A stretch of DNA of 42,451 nucleotides from the NCBI GenBank assembly GCA_016212665.1, contig JACREZ010000012.1, positions 1 through 42,451 on the forward strand, read 5' to 3'. Shown here one piece after another: positions 26,738 to 35,680 of this stretch. The notes beneath the pieces are model-generated. The model had not been told where the DNA came from. It searched no databases and saw nothing but the letters and a program-made list of their open reading frames with translations. The stretch comes from Ignavibacteriota bacterium (GTDB lineage: Bacteria > Bacteroidota > Ignavibacteria > UBA10030 > SZUA-254). The number at the start of each line of letters is the position of its first letter. Positions within the stretch are counted from its first letter, which is position 1. A program made the position numbers and the translations under genes.

Positions 26738-26969
26738 CTCCTCTACTCCATAACTCCTCTACTCCATAACTCCTCCACTCCATAACTCCTCTACTCCATA
26801 ACTCCTCTACTCCATAACTCCTCTACTCCATAACTCCTCTACTCCATAACTCCTCCACTCCATAACTCCTCTACTCCATTACTCCTCTACTCCATTACTC
26901 CTACACTCCATTACTCTCAACTACTCAACTACTCAACTACTCAACTTCTTAAATACTCAACTACTCAAC
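26738..26969. repeat. Tandem repeat, 16-bp unit (11 copies) grading into ACTCAACT words
   Basis: Eleven units of CTCCTCTACTCCATAA or close variants (one to three changes) run without interruption from 26738 to 26913. They are followed by a shorter-period CTCAACTACT stretch to 26969. Similar words recur at 39231-39280 and 40750-40830. It is not coding, and there are no spacers, so it is not a CRISPR array. Confidence 0.9.
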
Positions 26970-27479
26970 AAAATTTTGATTTTTAAAAAACAATTAGTAA
27001 GTTCACAAAGACGATATAGGCAATAGTAACAATGGGAAGACGGACTTAACATTCGCAGTCGCAAGCCCGCCCTTATGAACAGGATGACAAGTTATACAGT
27101 TGGTTGGTAACGTTATTTGAATGGGACGATAGATGGGAATAATTCGATAACATAATTATTACTTGTGAAGTTAGTAAACAGAAATACCTGCATAAGCAAC
27201 AGACCGCTTTTGCAGAACAAATACAAGACATTTTTCGAGCAACTGCTTCTCCGTTTCGAGAAAATGTATCTCCACGCTGAAAATCCAATTCTCAGCACAG
27301 GAATCGTGCGTCCCCAAACAGAAATCCCAATCCTCCACAATAAAAACTCCATTTTCTTTGTGTTACTTTGTGTTCCCTTTGTGAACTTCGTGGTTAAATT
27401 TTTTACAATCAACTATTTAGAACCACAATCTGCCCAAAATAGACAAAAAACAAACCTAAACACCAAAGAAATCAATATT
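26970..27479. other. 510-base stretch without a recognisable gene
   Basis: It is A/T-rich. The piece at about 27345-27400 (CTTTGTGTTACTTTGTG, then CTTCGTGGTTAA) is an intergenic word that recurs at 38350-38395. An open frame that starts at 27165 runs through here into the 21-bp repeats, but its first 100 codons show no protein-like feature apart from a short hydrophobic stretch that is this intergenic word. Confidence 0.5.
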
Positions 27480-27710
27480 TCTGGACATCCAATCAACTTT
27501 TCTGGTTCTCCGAACGACTTTTCAAGTCCTCCAATCAACTTTTCTGGACATCCGAACGACTTTTCGAGACCTCCAATCAACTTCTCCGGTTCTCCGAACA
27601 ACTTTTCTGGACATCCGAACGACTTTTCGAGACCTCCAATCAACTTCTCTGATTCTCCAAACGACCGTTCGACTCCATCAATCAACTTCGCCGGACATCC
27701 AAACAACTTC
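27480..27710. repeat. Tandem repeat, 21-bp unit (11 copies) coding a heptad if translated
   Basis: Eleven units of 21 bases of the type TCTGGACATCCGAACGACTTT keep phase from 27480 to 27710. In the plus-strand frame open from 27165 to 27809 they would encode S-x-x-P-x-N/D-F heptads (SGHPNDF, SRPPINF, SGSPNNF). The outer sequence is repeat-like, so a real protein is doubtful. Confidence 0.85.
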
Positions 27711-27760
27711 ACGCCAGAAGAAAACGATTATAAACAACATCCGAACCACGCAATCCCAAA

Positions 27761-27838
27761 ACCAATCAACCAATTAACCAATCAACCAGTTAACCAATTA
27801 ACCAGTTAACCAATTAACCAATTAACCATTTAACCAAT
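27761..27838. repeat. Tandem repeat, 8-bp unit (about 10 copies) abutting a start codon
   Basis: ACCAATTA and one-base variants (ACCAATCA, ACCAGTTA) repeat from 27761 and the last partial unit ends at 27838, directly before the ATG at 27839. It replaces any ribosome-binding site. Confidence 0.85.
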
Positions 27839-28714: not shown

Positions 28715-28994
28715 TTTCCTCGGCTGTCATGGTCCATACCATGACAGAGCGCTCCATAACCACCAAGAACAAATTTGATTCACAAAATGAATGATGTATA
28801 TTTACAGAAAATAAAACGGAACCAATATTACTTTACCACAAACTCGATTCAGAAGACAAAAATAAATCACACAGTAGATTATTATTATGGAAATAACCGC
28901 TAATCACTTCATCGTAAACATGCGTAATACTGCACTATGTGTGTTGGATTTGCGCTACTTTGGGAAGTGCGGATAGCGTATATTTAAATGTTAT
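28715..28994 (+). repeat. 280-bp direct repeat, copy A (left of the NACHT gene)
   Basis: It aligns without gaps to 34018-34297 with about 21 mismatches by eye (about 93% identity). It begins TTTCCTCGG, contains the hairpin CTGTCATGGT-CCAT-ACCATGACAG (28724-28747) and a promoter-like pair (28774-28804). It ends in GTTAT at 28990-28994, where the two copies diverge into different downstream genes. Confidence 0.9.
28774..28804 (+). promoter_or_regulatory. Repeat-borne promoter, copy A
   Basis: TTTG at 28774-28777 and TATATTTA at 28797-28804 with a 19-base spacer. The last base differs from TAnnTTTG. It would drive the NACHT gene with a leader of about 375 bases. Confidence 0.5.
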
Positions 28995-28997
28995 TGG
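28990..28997 (+). other. Core site GTTATTGG at the left end of the NACHT module
   Basis: Here the two 280-bp repeats stop being alike. Compare GTTATAGG at the same place in copy B (34293). It is only partly complementary to CCAACGAAC at 33720-33728 downstream of the module, so this boundary is weaker than the next two. Confidence 0.45.
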
Positions 28998-29185: not shown

Positions 29186-32100
29186 ATGATAAAGAAAGAA
29201 ATCAATTTTTCAGACCTTGTGGACTTCTTCAAAAAGAATGATGCCCAAACATTTGACAAAGAAATAGATGAGTTCGGAGGTTATTTTATTACAGCGGCAC
29301 GAATAGCTGCAATTATTATTGCTCCTGACCCTATTTCTAAAATCAGTGTGTTTTGCGCCAGTATTGATGCTGCATCATTAAGGGCCTCAAAACTTTTTTC
29401 TTGGCTTCCTGATAAATTCAAATATAAGGATAGAGAAAAAACAGCATTACAGAAATATGAACTTTCTTCTTATGTAAATTTTATTCTGTTACAGATTGCG
29501 ATTAAGAATGGTGTGAAGGAAATAATAATGCCTCATCTTCAGACAGTATTGAAAAATATTGAGCTTTCGGAAGAGGATAAAAATGAATTGGAAAAAAAGT
29601 CAACAGAATGTGATAAAGAAAGAATCACATTGAATCTGCCAAATAACTGTGCTTTATCTAAAGAGGATATAAGTAATCAGGCAATCAAAATTATTGACCC
29701 AATATTTTCTGTCCTTAACAGGTGTATTGACAAGGTAAAAGACACTACTCAAGCGCAAGCATTGAAGGGAATTGATTCGGCTAGGGCGAAAGAAACCTTC
29801 TTAGAGAATGTATCACTCCAATATCAAGCATTCCTGATTAATTTCTCTAGTGAGTTTCCTGAATTCGCCTTGTGGGCTGATGTAACACAAAAAGAAAAAA
29901 TCTTAACTGAACTTAAATCTGCTTCTAAGAGTAGTAAGGGTGAATTGAAAAAATTAAACGATGAGTTTATTTCTCAAACAGAAAAGCTGATAGAAAAAAT
30001 TGAGGAGCTAAAAGAAAACTCCTTCATTAAAGAAAGCGGATTCCCTTCCTTCATGGAAACATATGATAAGATGTTCAAAACACAAGAAGAACATATTTCT
30101 AAGGTTTTAAGTGGCAGAACAATAGAAAATATAAATGCCCACCATGAACATATTAAAAATAAACTTAACAAGCCCTTATCAGACAATACTGATGTTGAAG
30201 AGATTTGCTATCCACTAGAAAAAAATATATTTATTTCTCAAAGTTTCGAAGCAATTACTTATAGGAAAAAAGTTCATAGAAGAATATTCTTAGCGAAAAG
30301 AAAACTAAGCGAACAAGCAAGAGATGTTGAAATTGGTGAAAATATAGGTAAATTTCTCCAGCAAACATTAGTTGACCCAAATACTGCAACCAAGCCAATA
30401 TTACTTCTTGGTAATCCTGGAGCTGGGAAATCCATGTTGAGCAGAATGTTTGCTGGACTTCTTTGTGAAACAAATGATTTCATTCCTTTTCTTATAAGGT
30501 TAAGAGATGTGGCATCAAGTTCAGGTAATATTTCAGAGCATATAAATAAGGGTCTGGAAAGTACAATAGTTAATGTTACTGACATAAATTGGCTAGAATG
30601 GGCAAAAGAGTTTAAAGAAAGAATTCCTGTTGTGATTCTTGATGGCTTTGATGAATTAATGCAAACCGCAAATCGAGAACTTAATGGTTACGTTGACTCA
30701 ATTAAGGATTTTCAGGAAAAGGCTATCAATAGCGGAATATGCGTAAGGGTAATTTTAACGAGCCGAATAAGCGTTATGCAAGATGTTTTTATTCCTGAAG
30801 AAACAAAAATTATAAAATTAGATAGCTTTGATGATAAACGAAGAGATTTATGGATTGAAAAATGGCAAGAATCCCAAAAAAACAAACCTCATAATTTTAA
30901 AATTCCGAAAAATGAAAAAATTGATCAACTAGCGGAAGAACCTTTGCTTTTATTTATGCTTGCCGTTTATGATTTTGAGAGTGGGGATCTGCAAAAAATG
31001 GCAAAAGACAAAAACTTCAATCAAAGTAAACTTTATGATTCATTACTTGAAAGGTTTATTGAAAGGCAACTTATTAAGTATAAACCATTTAAAGACTTTA
31101 GTGAATCAACAAAAGAAAAAGAAAAGGAACTTTTTAGATTGCGCTTGGGAATGATTGCACTAATGATGTTTTTGAACGATACAACAAGTAGAGATTCTCA
31201 TAAGCTCTTAGATGAAATGAATGCTTTTGGAATTAATAAATCAACCATCCCAACTAATAATATTCTTGGTGGATTCTTTTTTATTCATGAAAACAAATCA
31301 ACTTCTGAAGGGGAAATAGAAAAATTCAACTATGAATTTCTCCATAAAACATTTGGTGAGTTCCTGGCTGCTGATTTTATGTTAAGAGTTACAAAAAAAC
31401 AATACGAGAGAATATTCGATGCCAATCAAGAGTTTATAGCAAAGAAAGAAACATTCTACTTTTGCTTTGGGTACAATTGGTTACATAAGCACAACAACAT
31501 TCAAAAATTTTTATATGAGCATGCCCCGCAAATATTAAAGCCTACCAATGCTGAAGTTAAGTTTATTATTAGTTCGATTATCAAAAACGATCTAAAAGAG
31601 TTGTTTGATAAAGGGCATCAAGCCTATCCTGTTACTGACATAAGGCTTTTAGAGAAGAAAACAGTAATTGAACATTTAGGGATATATTCTCAAAATATTA
31701 TTTTTCTATGGCTTGCTATTGCAAACAATGATAATCCTGTTCCGTTTGAAATCTATGATGTTAATGAATGTATCAGTGAAGCAGTTAATGAACCAAAGTA
31801 CGAATCACAAGACCGTGATGAGATTAACAAAAACAAACTACTTTGGAAGCGGCTTTCCAAACTTTGGACTTTAGTTGGTAACTACAATGCAACAGCCAAA
31901 CTTGCAGAATGGATTACTGTAACCGATAGCGGAAATACGATTGAATTAAGCAAGACAAAATCCAAAGTGATTCACAATTTCTCCGACTCTGCATATGTTG
32001 GATGCAACGACTTCGAACTTTTGTTATCATATTTTGACAACGAGTATAAATTTACAGATGGGCAAAGAACACTTCAAATCATTGAGAATATCATTTCAAA

Positions 32101-33481
32101 GAAGCCTGAACTTTTTTCATTAGCAGTTGACGTTGTGTTACACAGGTTCCATGATTTGTATTCCGCAGAAAATATGAATCTGATTGAATGGTTCAGAGTA
32201 AAAGAAATTAGTAGGAAACAACAAGTAGCTTTAATTAAGAAAACTGGCTTGCTCAAATGGCAAATTGACCCAACAGATTTCGTTGGAGTAGTTCGTTTAA
32301 TAAGTGAATATATGCAGCCGATTTTTAAAGATAATATCCAGGCAACAAATGAGTTTCTGAAAATATTGGTTGACCTAAAAGCATATTTCCCTCTCACTGA
32401 AATTATCAATCCTGAAATGTTGGAAGATATGTTTCACATGTTCAACAAAGAATTTCGACGACATGACAAAGACAGTCCTTTATCTATGTTGGAATATATC
32501 CGACTTCTTAATGAGTTGAGTAAATTCTACCCATTCAGAAGAAAGTTTAAAGGAGATTTTATGGAGGAATTATTGTACCGTTTAAGCAAAGACATGAGGC
32601 ATTATGTTATGGATAATCCTTCTTCAGCATTTGAATATTTAAGATTGTTTAATGAATTAAGGCAATACTACCCAATGGGGAAAATGCAACTTGAGTTCTA
32701 TGATGAAGCACTGCATATTATATCTAAAGACATTAAGCACTTTGTAAGAAACAACCCACAAATAATTTTAGAATACCTGAAACTTTTTTATGATATGAAT
32801 AAACACTTTCAAATTAACGAGAAAGTGCCCCAAAAGTTTATTATTGAATTATTAAGATTGATATCCGATGAATGGGAAACTGTTTTCCGAGACAATCAGT
32901 TTAATCTTTTAGAATACCTGAAAATAATCTCAGAATTTGGTATGCACTATCCAATAGAAGAAATTATTCCTCAAGCTTTGCTTCATGATATTTTTCATCG
33001 TTTATCCAAAGATTTGGTATACATCATTCGTGATAACCCTAAAGAAGCGCATCAATATCTACAAGTAGTGAAACAGTTTTACAGTCATTATTCGAGCAAG
33101 CAACGGTTCAAAGGGAAAATGATCATAGATGAACCTTTCTTTAGATTATCAAAAGAAATGGATATGGAGATTAGAGATAATCCCGATTCAACTTTAATTT
33201 ACTTAGAACTGTTGCTTATCAACCGTGAATATTACCAAGGTAGTAGAGAAGCACAGATGATTGACAGCATGCTAAACACTATCCGAAAAAGCGACTACTC
33301 AAGCAACGTTTTGACTAAAGCAGCTGTTATCCTAATTCAATACGAAGCACCAAGTTATTTAATTGAACGCCTATTTAACAATCATCCAAAATTTAGAAAC
33401 CTTTTTTTAAAGTCTCCTGAATTAGCAATAGAAGTTTTGAAAGCTACAGCAGAACTAAATAAAAATGAGAAATTTAATTAA
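29186..33481 (+). CDS. NACHT-type STAND ATPase with C-terminal 47-48-residue helical repeats
   Basis: 1431 residues, cytoplasmic. Residues 1-380 are helical with no recognised effector domain. The NACHT ATPase has Walker A GNPGAGKS (409-416), Walker B LDGFDEL (485-491) and LTSR (524-527), then EEPLLLFMLAVY and FLHKTFGEFLAADF (718-731), a pattern typical of NACHT proteins. From about 1030 to 1365 at least seven repeats share R-L-S-K-D/E-M...DN-P...EYL-L and tyrosine/proline turns, with a period of 47-48. Such sensors usually bind a ligand with the repeats and fire an N-terminal or partner effector; anti-phage defence is the likely role, by analogy with bacterial NACHT and Avs proteins. AT-rich composition, flanking 280-bp repeats and a good ribosome-binding site set it apart from the core genes. 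Confidence 0.9.
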   Translation: MIKKEINFSDLVDFFKKNDAQTFDKEIDEFGGYFITAARIAAIIIAPDPISKISVFCASIDAASLRASKLFSWLPDKFKYKDREKTALQKYELSSYVNFILLQIAIKNGVKEIIMPHLQTVLKNIELSEEDKNELEKKSTECDKERITLNLPNNCALSKEDISNQAIKIIDPIFSVLNRCIDKVKDTTQAQALKGIDSARAKETFLENVSLQYQAFLINFSSEFPEFALWADVTQKEKILTELKSASKSSKGELKKLNDEFISQTEKLIEKIEELKENSFIKESGFPSFMETYDKMFKTQEEHISKVLSGRTIENINAHHEHIKNKLNKPLSDNTDVEEICYPLEKNIFISQSFEAITYRKKVHRRIFLAKRKLSEQARDVEIGENIGKFLQQTLVDPNTATKPILLLGNPGAGKSMLSRMFAGLLCETNDFIPFLIRLRDVASSSGNISEHINKGLESTIVNVTDINWLEWAKEFKERIPVVILDGFDELMQTANRELNGYVDSIKDFQEKAINSGICVRVILTSRISVMQDVFIPEETKIIKLDSFDDKRRDLWIEKWQESQKNKPHNFKIPKNEKIDQLAEEPLLLFMLAVYDFESGDLQKMAKDKNFNQSKLYDSLLERFIERQLIKYKPFKDFSESTKEKEKELFRLRLGMIALMMFLNDTTSRDSHKLLDEMNAFGINKSTIPTNNILGGFFFIHENKSTSEGEIEKFNYEFLHKTFGEFLAADFMLRVTKKQYERIFDANQEFIAKKETFYFCFGYNWLHKHNNIQKFLYEHAPQILKPTNAEVKFIISSIIKNDLKELFDKGHQAYPVTDIRLLEKKTVIEHLGIYSQNIIFLWLAIANNDNPVPFEIYDVNECISEAVNEPKYESQDRDEINKNKLLWKRLSKLWTLVGNYNATAKLAEWITVTDSGNTIELSKTKSKVIHNFSDSAYVGCNDFELLLSYFDNEYKFTDGQRTLQIIENIISKKPELFSLAVDVVLHRFHDLYSAENMNLIEWFRVKEISRKQQVALIKKTGLLKWQIDPTDFVGVVRLISEYMQPIFKDNIQATNEFLKILVDLKAYFPLTEIINPEMLEDMFHMFNKEFRRHDKDSPLSMLEYIRLLNELSKFYPFRRKFKGDFMEELLYRLSKDMRHYVMDNPSSAFEYLRLFNELRQYYPMGKMQLEFYDEALHIISKDIKHFVRNNPQIILEYLKLFYDMNKHFQINEKVPQKFIIELLRLISDEWETVFRDNQFNLLEYLKIISEFGMHYPIEEIIPQALLHDIFHRLSKDLVYIIRDNPKEAHQYLQVVKQFYSHYSSKQRFKGKMIIDEPFFRLSKEMDMEIRDNPDSTLIYLELLLINREYYQGSREAQMIDSMLNTIRKSDYSSNVLTKAAVILIQYEAPSYLIERLFNNHPKFRNLFLKSPELAIEVLKATAELNKNEKFN

Positions 33482-33719
33482 AGTTTTAATTGCACTAACT
33501 TTTATTGCTGTTGCATTTTGGGTTTGCAACTACGTAGCTGATGAAAAGTGTTCAATTCAGATTAATGAACTAAACAAAAAATCTGAAGTTGACAAAAGAG
33601 TAATTCTGCAACTTCAAGACAGTTTGACTCTTTTAAAAACTGAATTGGAAGAGCAAAAAGTAATCAAACACTTTGATACAGTAAAAACAAAACAGACAAT
33701 AAAACAAGGAAAGAAATAG
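33465..33719 (+). CDS. Small membrane-anchored coiled-coil protein overlapping the NACHT gene
   Basis: 84 residues. Residues 1-23 (MRNLIKVLIALTFIAVAFWVCNY) form a signal anchor or membrane helix; 32-68 is a strong coiled coil (INELNKKSEVDKRVILQLQD ... ELEEQKV); the tail is Lys-rich. Its first 17 bases overlap the 3' end of the NACHT gene, so it is almost certainly cotranslated with it. It may be a partner, effector or regulator of the STAND protein, but I know no family for it. It could also resemble small lysis or spanin-like proteins in layout; that is a guess. Confidence 0.65.
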   Translation: MRNLIKVLIALTFIAVAFWVCNYVADEKCSIQINELNKKSEVDKRVILQLQDSLTLLKTELEEQKVIKHFDTVKTKQTIKQGKK

Positions 33720-33759
33720 CCAACGAACATTGCTAGTACATTTGTGTTTTCCTCGGATG

Positions 33760-33850
33760 TCCTCTCATTGCTACGCTCCAGCGTAGCAATGCCAAAACAG
33801 GCGCTTCGCGTCCGGCATCCTTTAGTTACGCTACTGTTAACATCGGGTTT
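33760..33850. repeat. Palindromic intergenic repeat, copy 1
   Basis: 91 bases aligned without gaps to 35590-35680 with about 9 mismatches. It opens with the perfect hairpin CATTGCTACGCT-CC-AGCGTAGCAATG (33766-33791), followed by CGCTTCGCG words and a shared right end GTTACGCTACTGTTAAC. Confidence 0.85.
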
Positions 33851-33915
33851 ACAATAGCATCAGTGTCGTATCTTGTCTAAACACGGGTACTAACACTCCA
33901 CGCTATTGCAAACCC
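33845..33915. repeat. Imperfect inverted repeat (attC-like arms)
   Basis: GGGTTTACAATAGC at 33845-33858 and GCTATTGCAAACCC at 33902-33915 are complementary at 13 of 14 positions across a 43-base spacer. This is the layout of the outer arms of a recombination site such as attC, with a preceding GTTAACATC core. Confidence 0.6.
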
Positions 33916-34017
33916 CCGAAACATTTTCTGTCACTCTTGCACGACTTATAAACTTCGAACTTTCGGAATTCTCATTGGCGAATATTCGGACATTTACCTT
34001 TTATCAAGATTTGCTTG

Positions 34018-34297
34018 TTTCCTCGGCTGTCATGGTCCATACCATGACAGAACGCTCCATAACCACCAAGAGCAAATTTGATTCACAAAATGAATGATGT
34101 ATATTTACAGAAAAGAAAACAGAACCAATATTACTTTATAACAAACTCGATTCAGAAGACAAAACTAAATCACACAGCAAATTAATATTATGATAATAAC
34201 CGTTATTCCCTTCATCGTAAACCTGCGCATTCCTGCACTACGTGTGTTGGATTTGCGCTACTTTGGGAACTGCGGATAGCGTATATTTAAATGTTAT
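34018..34297 (+). repeat. 280-bp direct repeat, copy B (right of the NACHT module)
   Basis: Second copy of 28715-28994, exactly 5303 bases away. The hairpin lies at 34027-34050 and the promoter pair at 34077-34107. It ends in GTTAT at 34293-34297. Recombination between A and B would remove the NACHT gene and the small gene as a 5.3-kb circle. Confidence 0.9.
34077..34107 (+). promoter_or_regulatory. Repeat-borne promoter, copy B
   Basis: TTTG at 34077-34080 and TATATTTA at 34100-34107 with a 19-base spacer, inside 280-bp repeat copy B. It points at the YciI-like gene 230 bases downstream. Confidence 0.5.
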
Positions 34298-34302
34298 AGG
34301 GC
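34293..34302 (+). other. Cassette-boundary core GTTATAGGGC (left end of the YciI-like cassette)
   Basis: It is the exact reverse complement of GCCCTATAAC at 34879-34888, on the other side of the YciI-like gene. The 10-base pairing around a single gene is what an integron cassette shows (GTT...R' at the left, ...AAC R'' at the right), although the bases after GTTA do not fit GTTRRRY. Confidence 0.6.
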
Positions 34303-34339
34303 ATGTTAGGACAAACAGCAAACAACTAAATTGACGACA

Positions 34340-34822
34340 ATGAAATATGTATTAATAATCACAGTGACACTATTAACCAACTTAACTTTCGGACAAGGTA
34401 AGTCGGAAAAAGACACAGCAAACTCAAACCCCAATTATGACAAAGTATTGGCGGAGAAATTGGGCGGAGACGACTATGGAATGAAAAGTTACTTTTTCGT
34501 AATCCTAAAAACAGGAACTAATAAGACCGAGGACAAAAATCTAATTAGCGAAGGTTTTAAAGGACACATGAAAAACATTGACCGATTGGTCAGAGAAAAC
34601 AAATTAATTGTAGCTGGACCGTTTGGCAAAAATGACAATAATTACCGAGGGCTTTTCATTTTGAACAATATCAAGACAATGGAAGATGCCAAAGACTTGT
34701 TACAAACCGACCCTGCGATTAAAAGTGGACTATTAGACTACGAAATTTTTAATTGGTATGGTTCGGCTGCACTTCCCGAATATTTACCATTTTCCGAAAA
34801 AATCTGGAAAGCAAAACCGTAG
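34340..34822 (+). CDS. Exported YciI-like (YCII-related) protein
   Basis: 160 residues from the ATG at 34340; a TTG nine bases upstream is less likely. A signal peptide (about 1-18, ...LTNLTFGQ) is followed by a spacer and then the YCII-like ferredoxin-fold domain (about 50-145): MKSYFFVILKTG, FKGHMKNIDRLVRENKLIVAGPFG, NYRGLFILNNIKTMEDAKDLLQTDPAIKSGLL. Members are small dimeric proteins with a conserved His-Asp type site (here GHMKNI) and poorly known activity. Export of such a domain is unusual but seen in Bacteroidota. The gene sits between complementary core sites. Confidence 0.8.
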   Translation: MKYVLIITVTLLTNLTFGQGKSEKDTANSNPNYDKVLAEKLGGDDYGMKSYFFVILKTGTNKTEDKNLISEGFKGHMKNIDRLVRENKLIVAGPFGKNDNNYRGLFILNNIKTMEDAKDLLQTDPAIKSGLLDYEIFNWYGSAALPEYLPFSEKIWKAKP

Positions 34823-35032
34823 TGATTCAAAAAACAATATTTACAATAGAACAAATACACGAATCTCGAAAGATAAACGCCCTATAACACGGGTTTGGCA
34901 AAAGTGGCGGCTCAGTGCTCCGCAGACACATTTGTGGTTAATCAAAGTTCAGTTCTCCGCATCTACATTTGTGCTGTAAATCCCGGCCACAGCAAATCTG
35001 CAAAACCTTATTCACAATTGTAAAAAAACACT

Positions 35033-35158
35033 ATGACAGACAAAGCAAAATCAAACGCACAAAATTCAAAAAACATGAAATGTGGGATGAGAATGCCTGT
35101 TGCTCAACATACAGGCTATCCCCAAGACCACTGGAAAGATGTACTGAATATTCGTTAG
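35033..35158 (+). CDS. Small open frame of 41 residues, possible cassette gene or remnant
   Basis: It begins MTDKAKSNAQNSKNMKCGMR and goes on MPVAQHTGYPQDHWKDVLNIR. The second half looks protein-like (conserved-type TGYPxDHW), the first half is Lys/Asn-rich. There is no visible ribosome-binding site. Its TAG overlaps the core site GTTAGCGG. It could be the start of a truncated cassette gene. I do not recognise the family. Confidence 0.3.
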   Translation: MTDKAKSNAQNSKNMKCGMRMPVAQHTGYPQDHWKDVLNIR

Positions 35159-35161
35159 CGG
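35154..35161 (+). other. Cassette-boundary core GTTAGCGG (left end of VOC cassette)
   Basis: It is the reverse complement of CCGCTAAC at 35573-35580 after the VOC gene. With one gap the match extends to GTTAGCGG(T)AATG. Confidence 0.6.
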
Positions 35162-35194
35162 TAATGCTGTCAAAACCATCTACTGACAAATATT

Positions 35195-35557
35195 ATGAGT
35201 TCTGAATATAAAGCATTATATATAAGTCCAATGATACCTTCATTCAACATGAAGGAAACAGTTCACTTTTTCAAAGACACATTAGGCTTTTTATCTGTTA
35301 TGGACACGGAAACTTATGCCGTTTATCAAAAAAATAATCTGACAGTTCACGTTTTACGGGCAGGCGAAAACATAGGACAAATGGAGTTTTATTTAGAGGT
35401 TGACAACATTGACGAACTTTGGTTTTCAATCAAAGACAAGGTAAAGGGACTTAAAGTAAGAGAACCCTTTAACCGAGAATATGGAATGAGAGAACTTCAC
35501 ATTGAAATTCCACAGACAAAGACGCTTTTATTCATAGGGCAACAAATTGACAAATGA
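35195..35557 (+). CDS. VOC superfamily (glyoxalase/bleomycin-resistance-like) protein
   Basis: 120 residues, cytoplasmic, single-domain. Two beta-alpha-beta-beta-beta modules are visible: SPMIPSFNMKETVHFFKDTLGF at the start and QMEFYLEVDNIDELWFSIKDK in the second half, ending MRELHIEIPQTKTLLFIGQ. The His and Glu in ELHIEIP are candidate metal ligands. Such small VOC proteins are common in cassette arrays, where they may protect against toxic compounds; the substrate is unknown. Both flanks carry complementary core sites (35154, 35573). Confidence 0.85.
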   Translation: MSSEYKALYISPMIPSFNMKETVHFFKDTLGFLSVMDTETYAVYQKNNLTVHVLRAGENIGQMEFYLEVDNIDELWFSIKDKVKGLKVREPFNREYGMRELHIEIPQTKTLLFIGQQIDK

Positions 35558-35572
35558 CAAAAGAAGCACATT

Positions 35573-35580
35573 CCGCTAAC
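35573..35580 (+). other. Core site CCGCTAAC (right end of VOC cassette)
   Basis: Complement of GTTAGCGG at 35154-35161, 15 bases after the VOC stop codon. It leads directly into the palindromic repeat copy 2. Confidence 0.6.
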
Positions 35581-35589
35581 AGCACATCT

Positions 35590-35680
35590 TCCTCTCGTTG
35601 CTACGCTCCTGCGTAGCAATGTCAAAACAGACGCTCTGCGTCCAGCATCTTTTTGTTACGCTACTGTTAACATCGGGTTT
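35590..35680. repeat. Palindromic intergenic repeat, copy 2
   Basis: Second copy of 33760-33850. Hairpin arms at 35596-35621 keep pairing, but the loop is altered (TCCT instead of CC at the tip) and the outer pair is G-T instead of A-T, so the structure has been kept while bases changed. It runs into TTTCCTCGGCTGTCATGGT at 35679, the start of the 280-bp repeat. Confidence 0.85.

Follow-up and report, generated by a model that had tools for sequence, protein, structure and literature searches.

A probable decayed attC site in an Ignavibacteriota genome and a candidate second kind of integron in Bacteroidota

Positions 33834–33931 of the window most probably represent the decayed attC site of a Bacteroidota-type integron array from which the integrase has been lost, leaving a CALIN-like remnant. 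The window is the whole stretch of DNA that was analysed, 42,451 nucleotides, and is one whole contig (JACREZ010000012.1) of an Ignavibacteriota bacterium whose 3.9 Mb assembly comprises 45 contigs and is 99.65% complete. The site is found by a covariance model, R1, built from 16 diverse sites that all come from other genomes; the window genome is absent from it. Taken alone, the window site is a relic of modest interest. Its parts and the features around it are listed in Table 1.

Table 1. Coordinates of the attC-like sites, cassettes, leaders and repeats of the window
Feature	Position	Strand	Basis or remark
Degenerate attC-like site	33834–33931	+	R1 24.9 bits, E 5.8e-4 in the window; takes in R″ and R′
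L″ arm GGGTTTACAATAGC	33845–33858	+	Sequence, fold, R1
L′ arm GCTATTGCAAACCC	33902–33915	+	Sequence, R1; with the next CCGAAAC, matches the family 3′ half GCAAACCCCCGAAAC
Place of R′	33923–33930	+	ATTTTCTG, against GTTA.. in the family; core lost
REP-like double palindrome abutting the site	33760–33835	+	Also at 35590–35665 and on contig C27
Second leader copy, 5′ of the STAND gene	28756–28997	+	91% identical
STAND-type NTPase gene, first cassette gene	29186–33481	+	Weak NACHT / nSTAND3, below Pfam cut-offs
Repeated leader, ending GCGTATATTTAAAT|GTTA; putative orphan attI-like site	34059–34300	+	Five near-complete copies in the genome
R′ of YciI cassette, GTTATAGGGC	34293–34302	+	Sequence
YciI-domain cassette gene	34331–34822	+	PF03795 27.7 bits, cut-off 24
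R″ of YciI cassette, GCCCTATAAC	34879–34888	+	Exact reverse complement of its own R′
attC-like site of YciI cassette	34881–35015	+	R1 59.1 bits; R′ reads CTTA
R′ of next cassette, GTTAGCGGTAATG	35154–35166	+	Sequence; gene 35195–35557
120-aa gene between matching cassette ends	35195–35557	+	No Pfam match
R″ of 120-aa-gene cassette, CATTCCGCTAAC	35569–35580	+	Rest of attC seems cut by REP-like repeat

Sequence and fold of the window site

The two L arms are complementary at 13 of 14 positions, without a gap, and are separated by 43 bases, exactly as an earlier note on this DNA had described them; the word GTTAACATC, which it placed directly before the first arm, is found at 33836–33844. The site extends past 33838–33915, the span given there. 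At the one position that does not pair, A33851 faces C33909 (a G.T on the bottom strand); this is a mismatch and not the unpaired base of a bulged arm that the note had seen. Most relatives of the site also have no bulge, and the extrahelical L-stem bases of attC are absent from the window site. When aligned to R1, the site has the two-stem inverted repeat with an asymmetric spacer over 33834–33931, the outer stem being partial. Folded as DNA, the 78 bases of the arm hairpin reach −13.3 kcal/mol (z −4.8) on the top strand and −17.8 kcal/mol (z −7.0) on the bottom strand, and none of 200 shuffles folds as well on either strand, so the comparison with shuffled sequence that the note had proposed for the bottom strand came out in its favour. 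The stronger fold of the bottom strand is what an attC should show.

Two other readings of the hairpin were rejected. A terminator is ruled out by the lack of a T run 3′ of the hairpin. A reading on the bottom strand, in which R′ would be GTTAACAG, was set aside because the order in the relatives is CCGAAAC|GTTA, and the window site is therefore oriented on the + strand. Apart from one tRNA, the window holds no known RNA family, and none is present in five loci. A search for plasmid DNA related to positions 33700–34100 gave no match.

The GTT of R′ is invariant in all 16 rows of the alignment of the relatives' sites (A2), while the RRRY that follows is not always kept in them. In the window site R′ reads ATTTTCT, against a GTTRRRY core with cleavage at G|TT. 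The mispair that is fixed in the family is also absent, A33856 and T33904 being paired instead. Relative to the family consensus, R′ has changed from G to A, pair 18/113 from G to A and pair 23/108 from C to T, and these three changes, if the consensus is taken as the starting point, would be of one transition type. With ATT in place of the GTT core and without the fixed mispair, the window copy is probably a dead, worn-out site. The earlier note compared the arms to those by which a folded strand is recognised by an integrase; with core and mispair lost and no matching integrase found, such recognition is unlikely for this copy today. The stem is well paired, the whole site folds better as bottom strand (−18.5 kcal/mol) than as top strand (−14.1 kcal/mol) and the asymmetry of the spacer is preserved, as they would be in a live attC usable by an integrase supplied in trans. 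A live site is nevertheless very unlikely, given the ATT core, the lost mispair and the failure to find an integrase in the genome.

Matches to the covariance model in the genome

The R boxes of the family fit the next cassette only partly, and a covariance model was therefore used. The paired positions of its training sites covary: double-changed cells number 87, against 33.4 after shuffling and no more than 20 after sliding. Without filters, R1 scores the YciI-side site of the window at 59.1 bits, with an E-value of 3.4e-12 that, like all R1 E-values, is rough. The next best score in the window after the two sites is 11.0 bits, and the best in 20 other loci of the same genome (63,688 bases) is 13.2 bits. 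A search of the whole genome at E up to 10, in which 150 of 813 first-look candidates were scored, gives six matches: two on C32, one on C8, two on C12 and one on C27. The window site is the weakest of them (23.9 bits, E 0.094 genome-wide). All six adjoin a gene, the second C32 site included. The bottom strand is the more stable in three of the six, the window site among them, the less stable in two and equal in one. Of two plain scans of loci of this genome, the first yielded no site; the second did not pick up the window site but recovered the C8 site, along with several matches regarded as chance.

The covariance search that the earlier note had asked for was thus made with a model from other genomes only, and it finds the window site, the YciI-side site and four more. 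Sites beside further genes, whose lack would have told against the proposal, do occur. On the strength of the model matches and the six sites beside genes, the integron reading is right in kind: the window site is attC-like and has a second site near it, although it lacks the proposed bulge.

The REP-like double palindrome that abuts the site raises a different explanation, that the hairpin arose by chance or from the repeat, with arms that belong to the REP-like element and simply resemble attC. A repeat of 91 bases that takes in GTTAACATCGGGTTT does recur at 35590–35680, with the second arm missing, and a longer copy on C27 folds weakly (bottom strand −10.5 kcal/mol). Against this, the second arm together with CCGAAAC matches the 3′ half of attC that is found, by the pattern GCAAACCNCCRAAACGTTA, in 37 stretches of the genome collection, 27 of them with Bacteroidota in the record title; R1 places the window site well above background and gives the C27 copy 27.8 bits; and the stretch that holds a similar REP-like repeat on C25 (L037) has no R1 match. 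Chance or the REP-like repeat is therefore an unlikely origin of the hairpin, and a decayed attC is the preferred reading. The REP-like repeat is seen fused to remnants of three attC sites (33760–33835, 35590–35680 and L035 on C27). It may favour attC sites as targets, and its fusion to the window site obscures the history of that site.

Cassettes and leaders around the site

Along the contig, the window site follows the STAND cassette and precedes the second leader (34059–34300). The opening word of the YciI-side site, ACGGGTTTGGCA, begins at 34889, as the earlier note had it. The loop of this site holds a 25-base direct repeat (34912–34936 and 34949–34973), and the repeat, TCAGT.CTCCGCA..ACATTTGTG, was also seen by eye in the sites of other genomes.

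Five cassettes (two on C12 and one each on C27, C8 and C32) are preceded by the leader, which is about 240 bases long and in each case ends at GTTA. Its end resembles the word before the first cassette at several integrases, and by this likeness the leader may be an orphan attI. The word at 34077 within it is presumably a Bacteroidota-like promoter. No long match to the leader is present in 60 relatives. Upstream of the first leader are tandem repeats at 26738–26916, 27470–27709 and 27760–27838, with units of 16, 21/42/63 and 8 bases; the 21-base repeats lie inside the open reading frame 27165–27809.

Elsewhere in the genome, the C8 cassette has the ends GTTATGCCCAATTTTA and TAAAATTGGGCATAAC, and on C32 three successive genes are preceded by GTTAGCTGTA, GTTATAGGCAAC and GTTAGCAGTAAT, and R1 matches one site behind the first gene and another behind the third. 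PADLOC gave no defence match for four cassette genes.

The family of sites

In a relative of the same order (G047), the same 3′ half forms part of a clean inverted site with a GCCAAC end, a GGGGTTTGCG arm, a CCGAAAC spacer and a GTTAGGC core. A folded site of about 121 bases was obtained in 21 cases, 20 of them in records with Bacteroidota titles. A contig of Kaistella pullorum (L138) carries 11 sites in a single direction within 7.3 kb. Matches to R1 at E up to 1e-3 are present in 26 of the 60 relatives, and in an even sample across the phylum 72 of 148 genomes have matches at E up to 1e-6.

Outside the training set, 12 further stretches yield 57 matching rows, 54 forward and 3 reverse reads. 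Covariation in these rows is 0.543, against 0.148 when shuffled and at most 0.084 when slid, in an alignment that is fitted to the structure of the model. Pair 23/108 is A.C in 52 of the 54 forward rows and A.G in the other two; the three G.T rows are those taken as reverse reads. The mispairs on the top strand are 28 A.C and 5 G.T, and they favour the bottom strand at 13 sites and the top strand at none; in the larger set they favour the bottom strand at 35 sites against 3, with 16 ties. The bottom strand also folds better in 15 of the 16 training sites. Since the sites are related, these mispair and fold counts are not independent.

Most stems of the family have no gap: 30 of 35 sites in the plain scan and 14 of 23 with looser scoring are gapless, and a gap or insert interrupts the L arms in 10 of 57 rows. 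Among classical sites of the same order, in few arrays, gapless stems number 0 in 4 reads of three sites and 0 of 14 in six loci. A classical IntI scoring over the TIGR02249 cut-off is present in 13 of the 60 relatives, as would suit a classical attC with extrahelical bases and an IntI of the classical kind, additional domain included, to recombine it. This origin of the window site is extremely improbable. The 14 classical sites detected in six loci all carry two bulges, R1 finds no site in the six classical loci (L078–L083), and a classical IntI over the cut-off is present in none of the 22 genomes with a Bacteroidota-type site (from the 37 stretches). A classical IntI is thus rejected as the enzyme.

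Arrays and their direction

All sites matched by R1 near an IntI-like gene lie downstream of that gene and on the same strand. This holds for all 57 sites, which are spread over 18 arrays: 20 sites in 10 of 26 IntI-like loci, 1 site in one of ten further loci (nine are siteless), four of four sites on a plasmid of Chryseobacterium sp. SNU WT5 (NZ_CP041688.1) and 32 of 32 sites in six further genomes, three of them single-contig (G137, G135, G131). The six genomes are examples and not a random sample, since they were chosen where lists showed a site near a recombinase. Eight weaker opposite-strand reads of the same sites (1, 3 and 4 in three scans) are excluded. The second plasmid stretch, from C. 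oryzae, has a similar integrase and no site found by R1, so that one of the two plasmid stretches is siteless. In the plasmid array of NZ_CP041688.1, a group II intron maturase (L231, 15765–17081) was noticed within the cassettes and opposite to them.

R1 finds no site in 16 of the 26 IntI-like loci. In four of the 16 (L084, L087, L088 and L089), or 5 of 25 with the later loci counted, the plain scan does find sites; in L161, L162, L165, L166, L171, L178, L179, L180 and L086 the integrase is at most about 450 bases from the array-side end of the contig or runs off it; and in L163, L170 and L172 sites were not found. The plain scan places sites in 12 of the 26 integrase-bearing loci, with 26 of 26 downstream and co-directional and none in shuffled sequence; nine sites in L138 and L114, loci without an integrase, are dropped from this count. 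Looser scoring of the IntI-like loci puts 17 sites on the strand of the integrase and 6 on the opposite one, against 4 in shuffled sequence, and the stricter scan and the model are preferred as the measure.

Beside integrases, R′ and R″ of the first cassette share 9 or more of 12 bases at 12 of the 14 loci; of the 176 pairings with ends from other loci, 22 reach this level. The bases before this R′ are often, though not in every locus, TATA-rich; an example of an entry word is ttcgtatatttataa|GTTA, which may be compared with gcgtatatttaaat|GTTA of the leader. The arrays of the relatives are in this way sets of co-oriented cassettes beside an integrase, with an attI-like entry site. Arrays without an intact integrase in view also exist, in one stretch of G206 and in two more arrays of G137. 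One of the two arrays of G137, a single-contig genome, is headed by a fragment of an IntI-like gene (L230, 3285–3656); here the integrase is decaying and the array persists.

The IntI-like recombinase

Neither an IntI nor an IntI-like integrase was found in the window genome (99.65% complete, 45 contigs), two congeners (83% and 81% complete) likewise yielded no classical IntI over the cut-off and no integrase of the IntI-like class, and the four stretches of the genome that carry leaders hold no integrase remnant (best E 0.032). In 17 of the 22 genomes with a Bacteroidota-type site, there is a protein whose N-terminal piece matches TIGR02249 at 100 bits or more; where the C-terminal piece is listed too, the match passes over about positions 180–237. 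In the alignment, from which L180, L087 and L089 are left out as partial or misframed, 42 columns that are filled in IntI are nearly empty in the IntI-like proteins, being filled in fewer than 30% of the 23 rows, and by eye the IntI-specific additional domain is missing from all 23. The predicted structure of an IntI-like protein (mean pLDDT 84.9) is consistent with this, residues 280–295 connecting two helices with no extra helix. An N-terminal extension is often present.

In a tree that does not include archaeal XerA, IntI and the IntI-like proteins are set apart from 11 local Xer proteins (100/100). IntI occupies one side of a branch (100/100), and the IntI-like proteins form one group in 39% of bootstrap trees. 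In NCBI the plasmid protein carries the name 'site-specific tyrosine recombinase/integron integrase'. Relatives of the IntI-like proteins occur in 266 plasmid records, many from Rhizobiales and Acinetobacter, so the protein family is not tied to attC alone; one of these plasmid relatives is annotated as TnpF. Three phage records hold a distant relative of the integrase.

Relationship to known systems

The Bacteroidota-type arrays share with integrons and CALINs the matching R′ and R″ ends, the two-stem attC with an asymmetric spacer, the arrangement in arrays and an attI-like entry site. A CALIN consists of at least two attC sites with no integron integrase nearby, and the window, with two sites and no integrase found, has this composition. 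The arrays differ from integrons in that the integrase is without the IntI-specific domain, that its gene points into the array, that most attC stems have no extrahelical base, and that at 12 of the 14 loci the two cassette ends agree over 9–11 bases out of 12.

The closest integron relative of the enzyme is the integron integrase model TIGR02249, to which seven IntI-like proteins score 180–245 bits (cut-off 265). The structure of the Vibrio cholerae integron integrase (PDB 2a3v, named IntI4 there) aligns over 249 residues (Z 18.9, rmsd 4.9). The best structural match is archaeal XerA (PDB 4a8e; also 5hxy), with 258 residues aligned to 4a8e, Z 23.9 and rmsd 8.7. XerA is known as a resolvase of chromosome dimers and is not known to have the IntI-specific patch. 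The IntI-like gene differs from XerA in standing at the head of cassette arrays and, often, in an N-terminal extension. IntI-like proteins score 202–230 bits (cut-off 220) with NF040815, an NCBIfam model of the XerA type. NF040815 has matches in 136 of the 148 genomes, 79 over the cut-off, and is no measure of the IntI-like integrase because Xer proteins are caught by it as well.

Parts of this picture are already in print. PMC13148043 (2026) describes a Riemerella anatipestifer aph(3′)-IVb unit, consisting of the gene with 27 bp upstream and 140 bp downstream, that inserts without flanking homology and whose 3′ portion is reported to take an attC-like fold; the mechanism, according to its authors, has not yet been elucidated. 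By this description, the likeness is an attC-like 3′ fold in Bacteroidota. In the main text of that paper the words 'integrase' and 'recombinase' do not occur. IntegronFinder, as described in PMC9668308, requires the IntI-specific domain, and arrays headed by an enzyme without it would therefore be missed or called CALIN. In PMC9024848, the authors of IntegronFinder name a single complete integron in Bacteroidetes proper, that of Salinibacter ruber. PMC7790495 and PMC4792948 propose that acquisition of the I2 helix created single-strand recombination by IntI. Among the titles, openings of abstracts and passages covered (including PMC13063519, PMC8618304, PMC8138268, PMC2426708 and PMC8371274), a scope outside which preprints and most subscription papers fall, no description of patchless integrases heading attC arrays was found.

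Proposed mechanism and significance

With moderate confidence, the arrays may be regarded as a second kind of integron in Bacteroidota, in which a recombinase without the I2 or additional domain acts on folded, single-stranded attC without extrahelical bases, a fixed T.G wobble and the asymmetric spacer tell strand and polarity, and the integrase gene reads into the array. In intact relatives, a cassette consists of a gene between matching ends, R′ GTTA.. and R″ ..TAAC. The site that follows the gene is about 121 bases long and folds, as single strand, into two stems, a 19-bp L stem and a short outer R stem, with the asymmetric spacer between them. A patchless tyrosine recombinase resembling IntI and XerA, encoded upstream in the same direction, would bind the folded bottom strand and join it, at G|TT of R′, to an attI-like site that is often TATA-rich and ends in ..|GTTA. 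As a mark of strand and polarity, the fixed T.G wobble of the bottom-strand stem may stand in for the classical extrahelical bases.

The family of sites is widespread in Bacteroidota and appears to be served by an integrase without a part thought essential for such sites. If patchless enzymes do act on folded attC, a large phylum would have an overlooked system of gene capture, and the proposal on I2 acquisition could be tested with natural enzymes. The second kind of integron would then be a living alternative to the classical IntI, or its forerunner, and the resistance genes that insert without homology in Riemerella might owe their insertion to a patchless recombinase.
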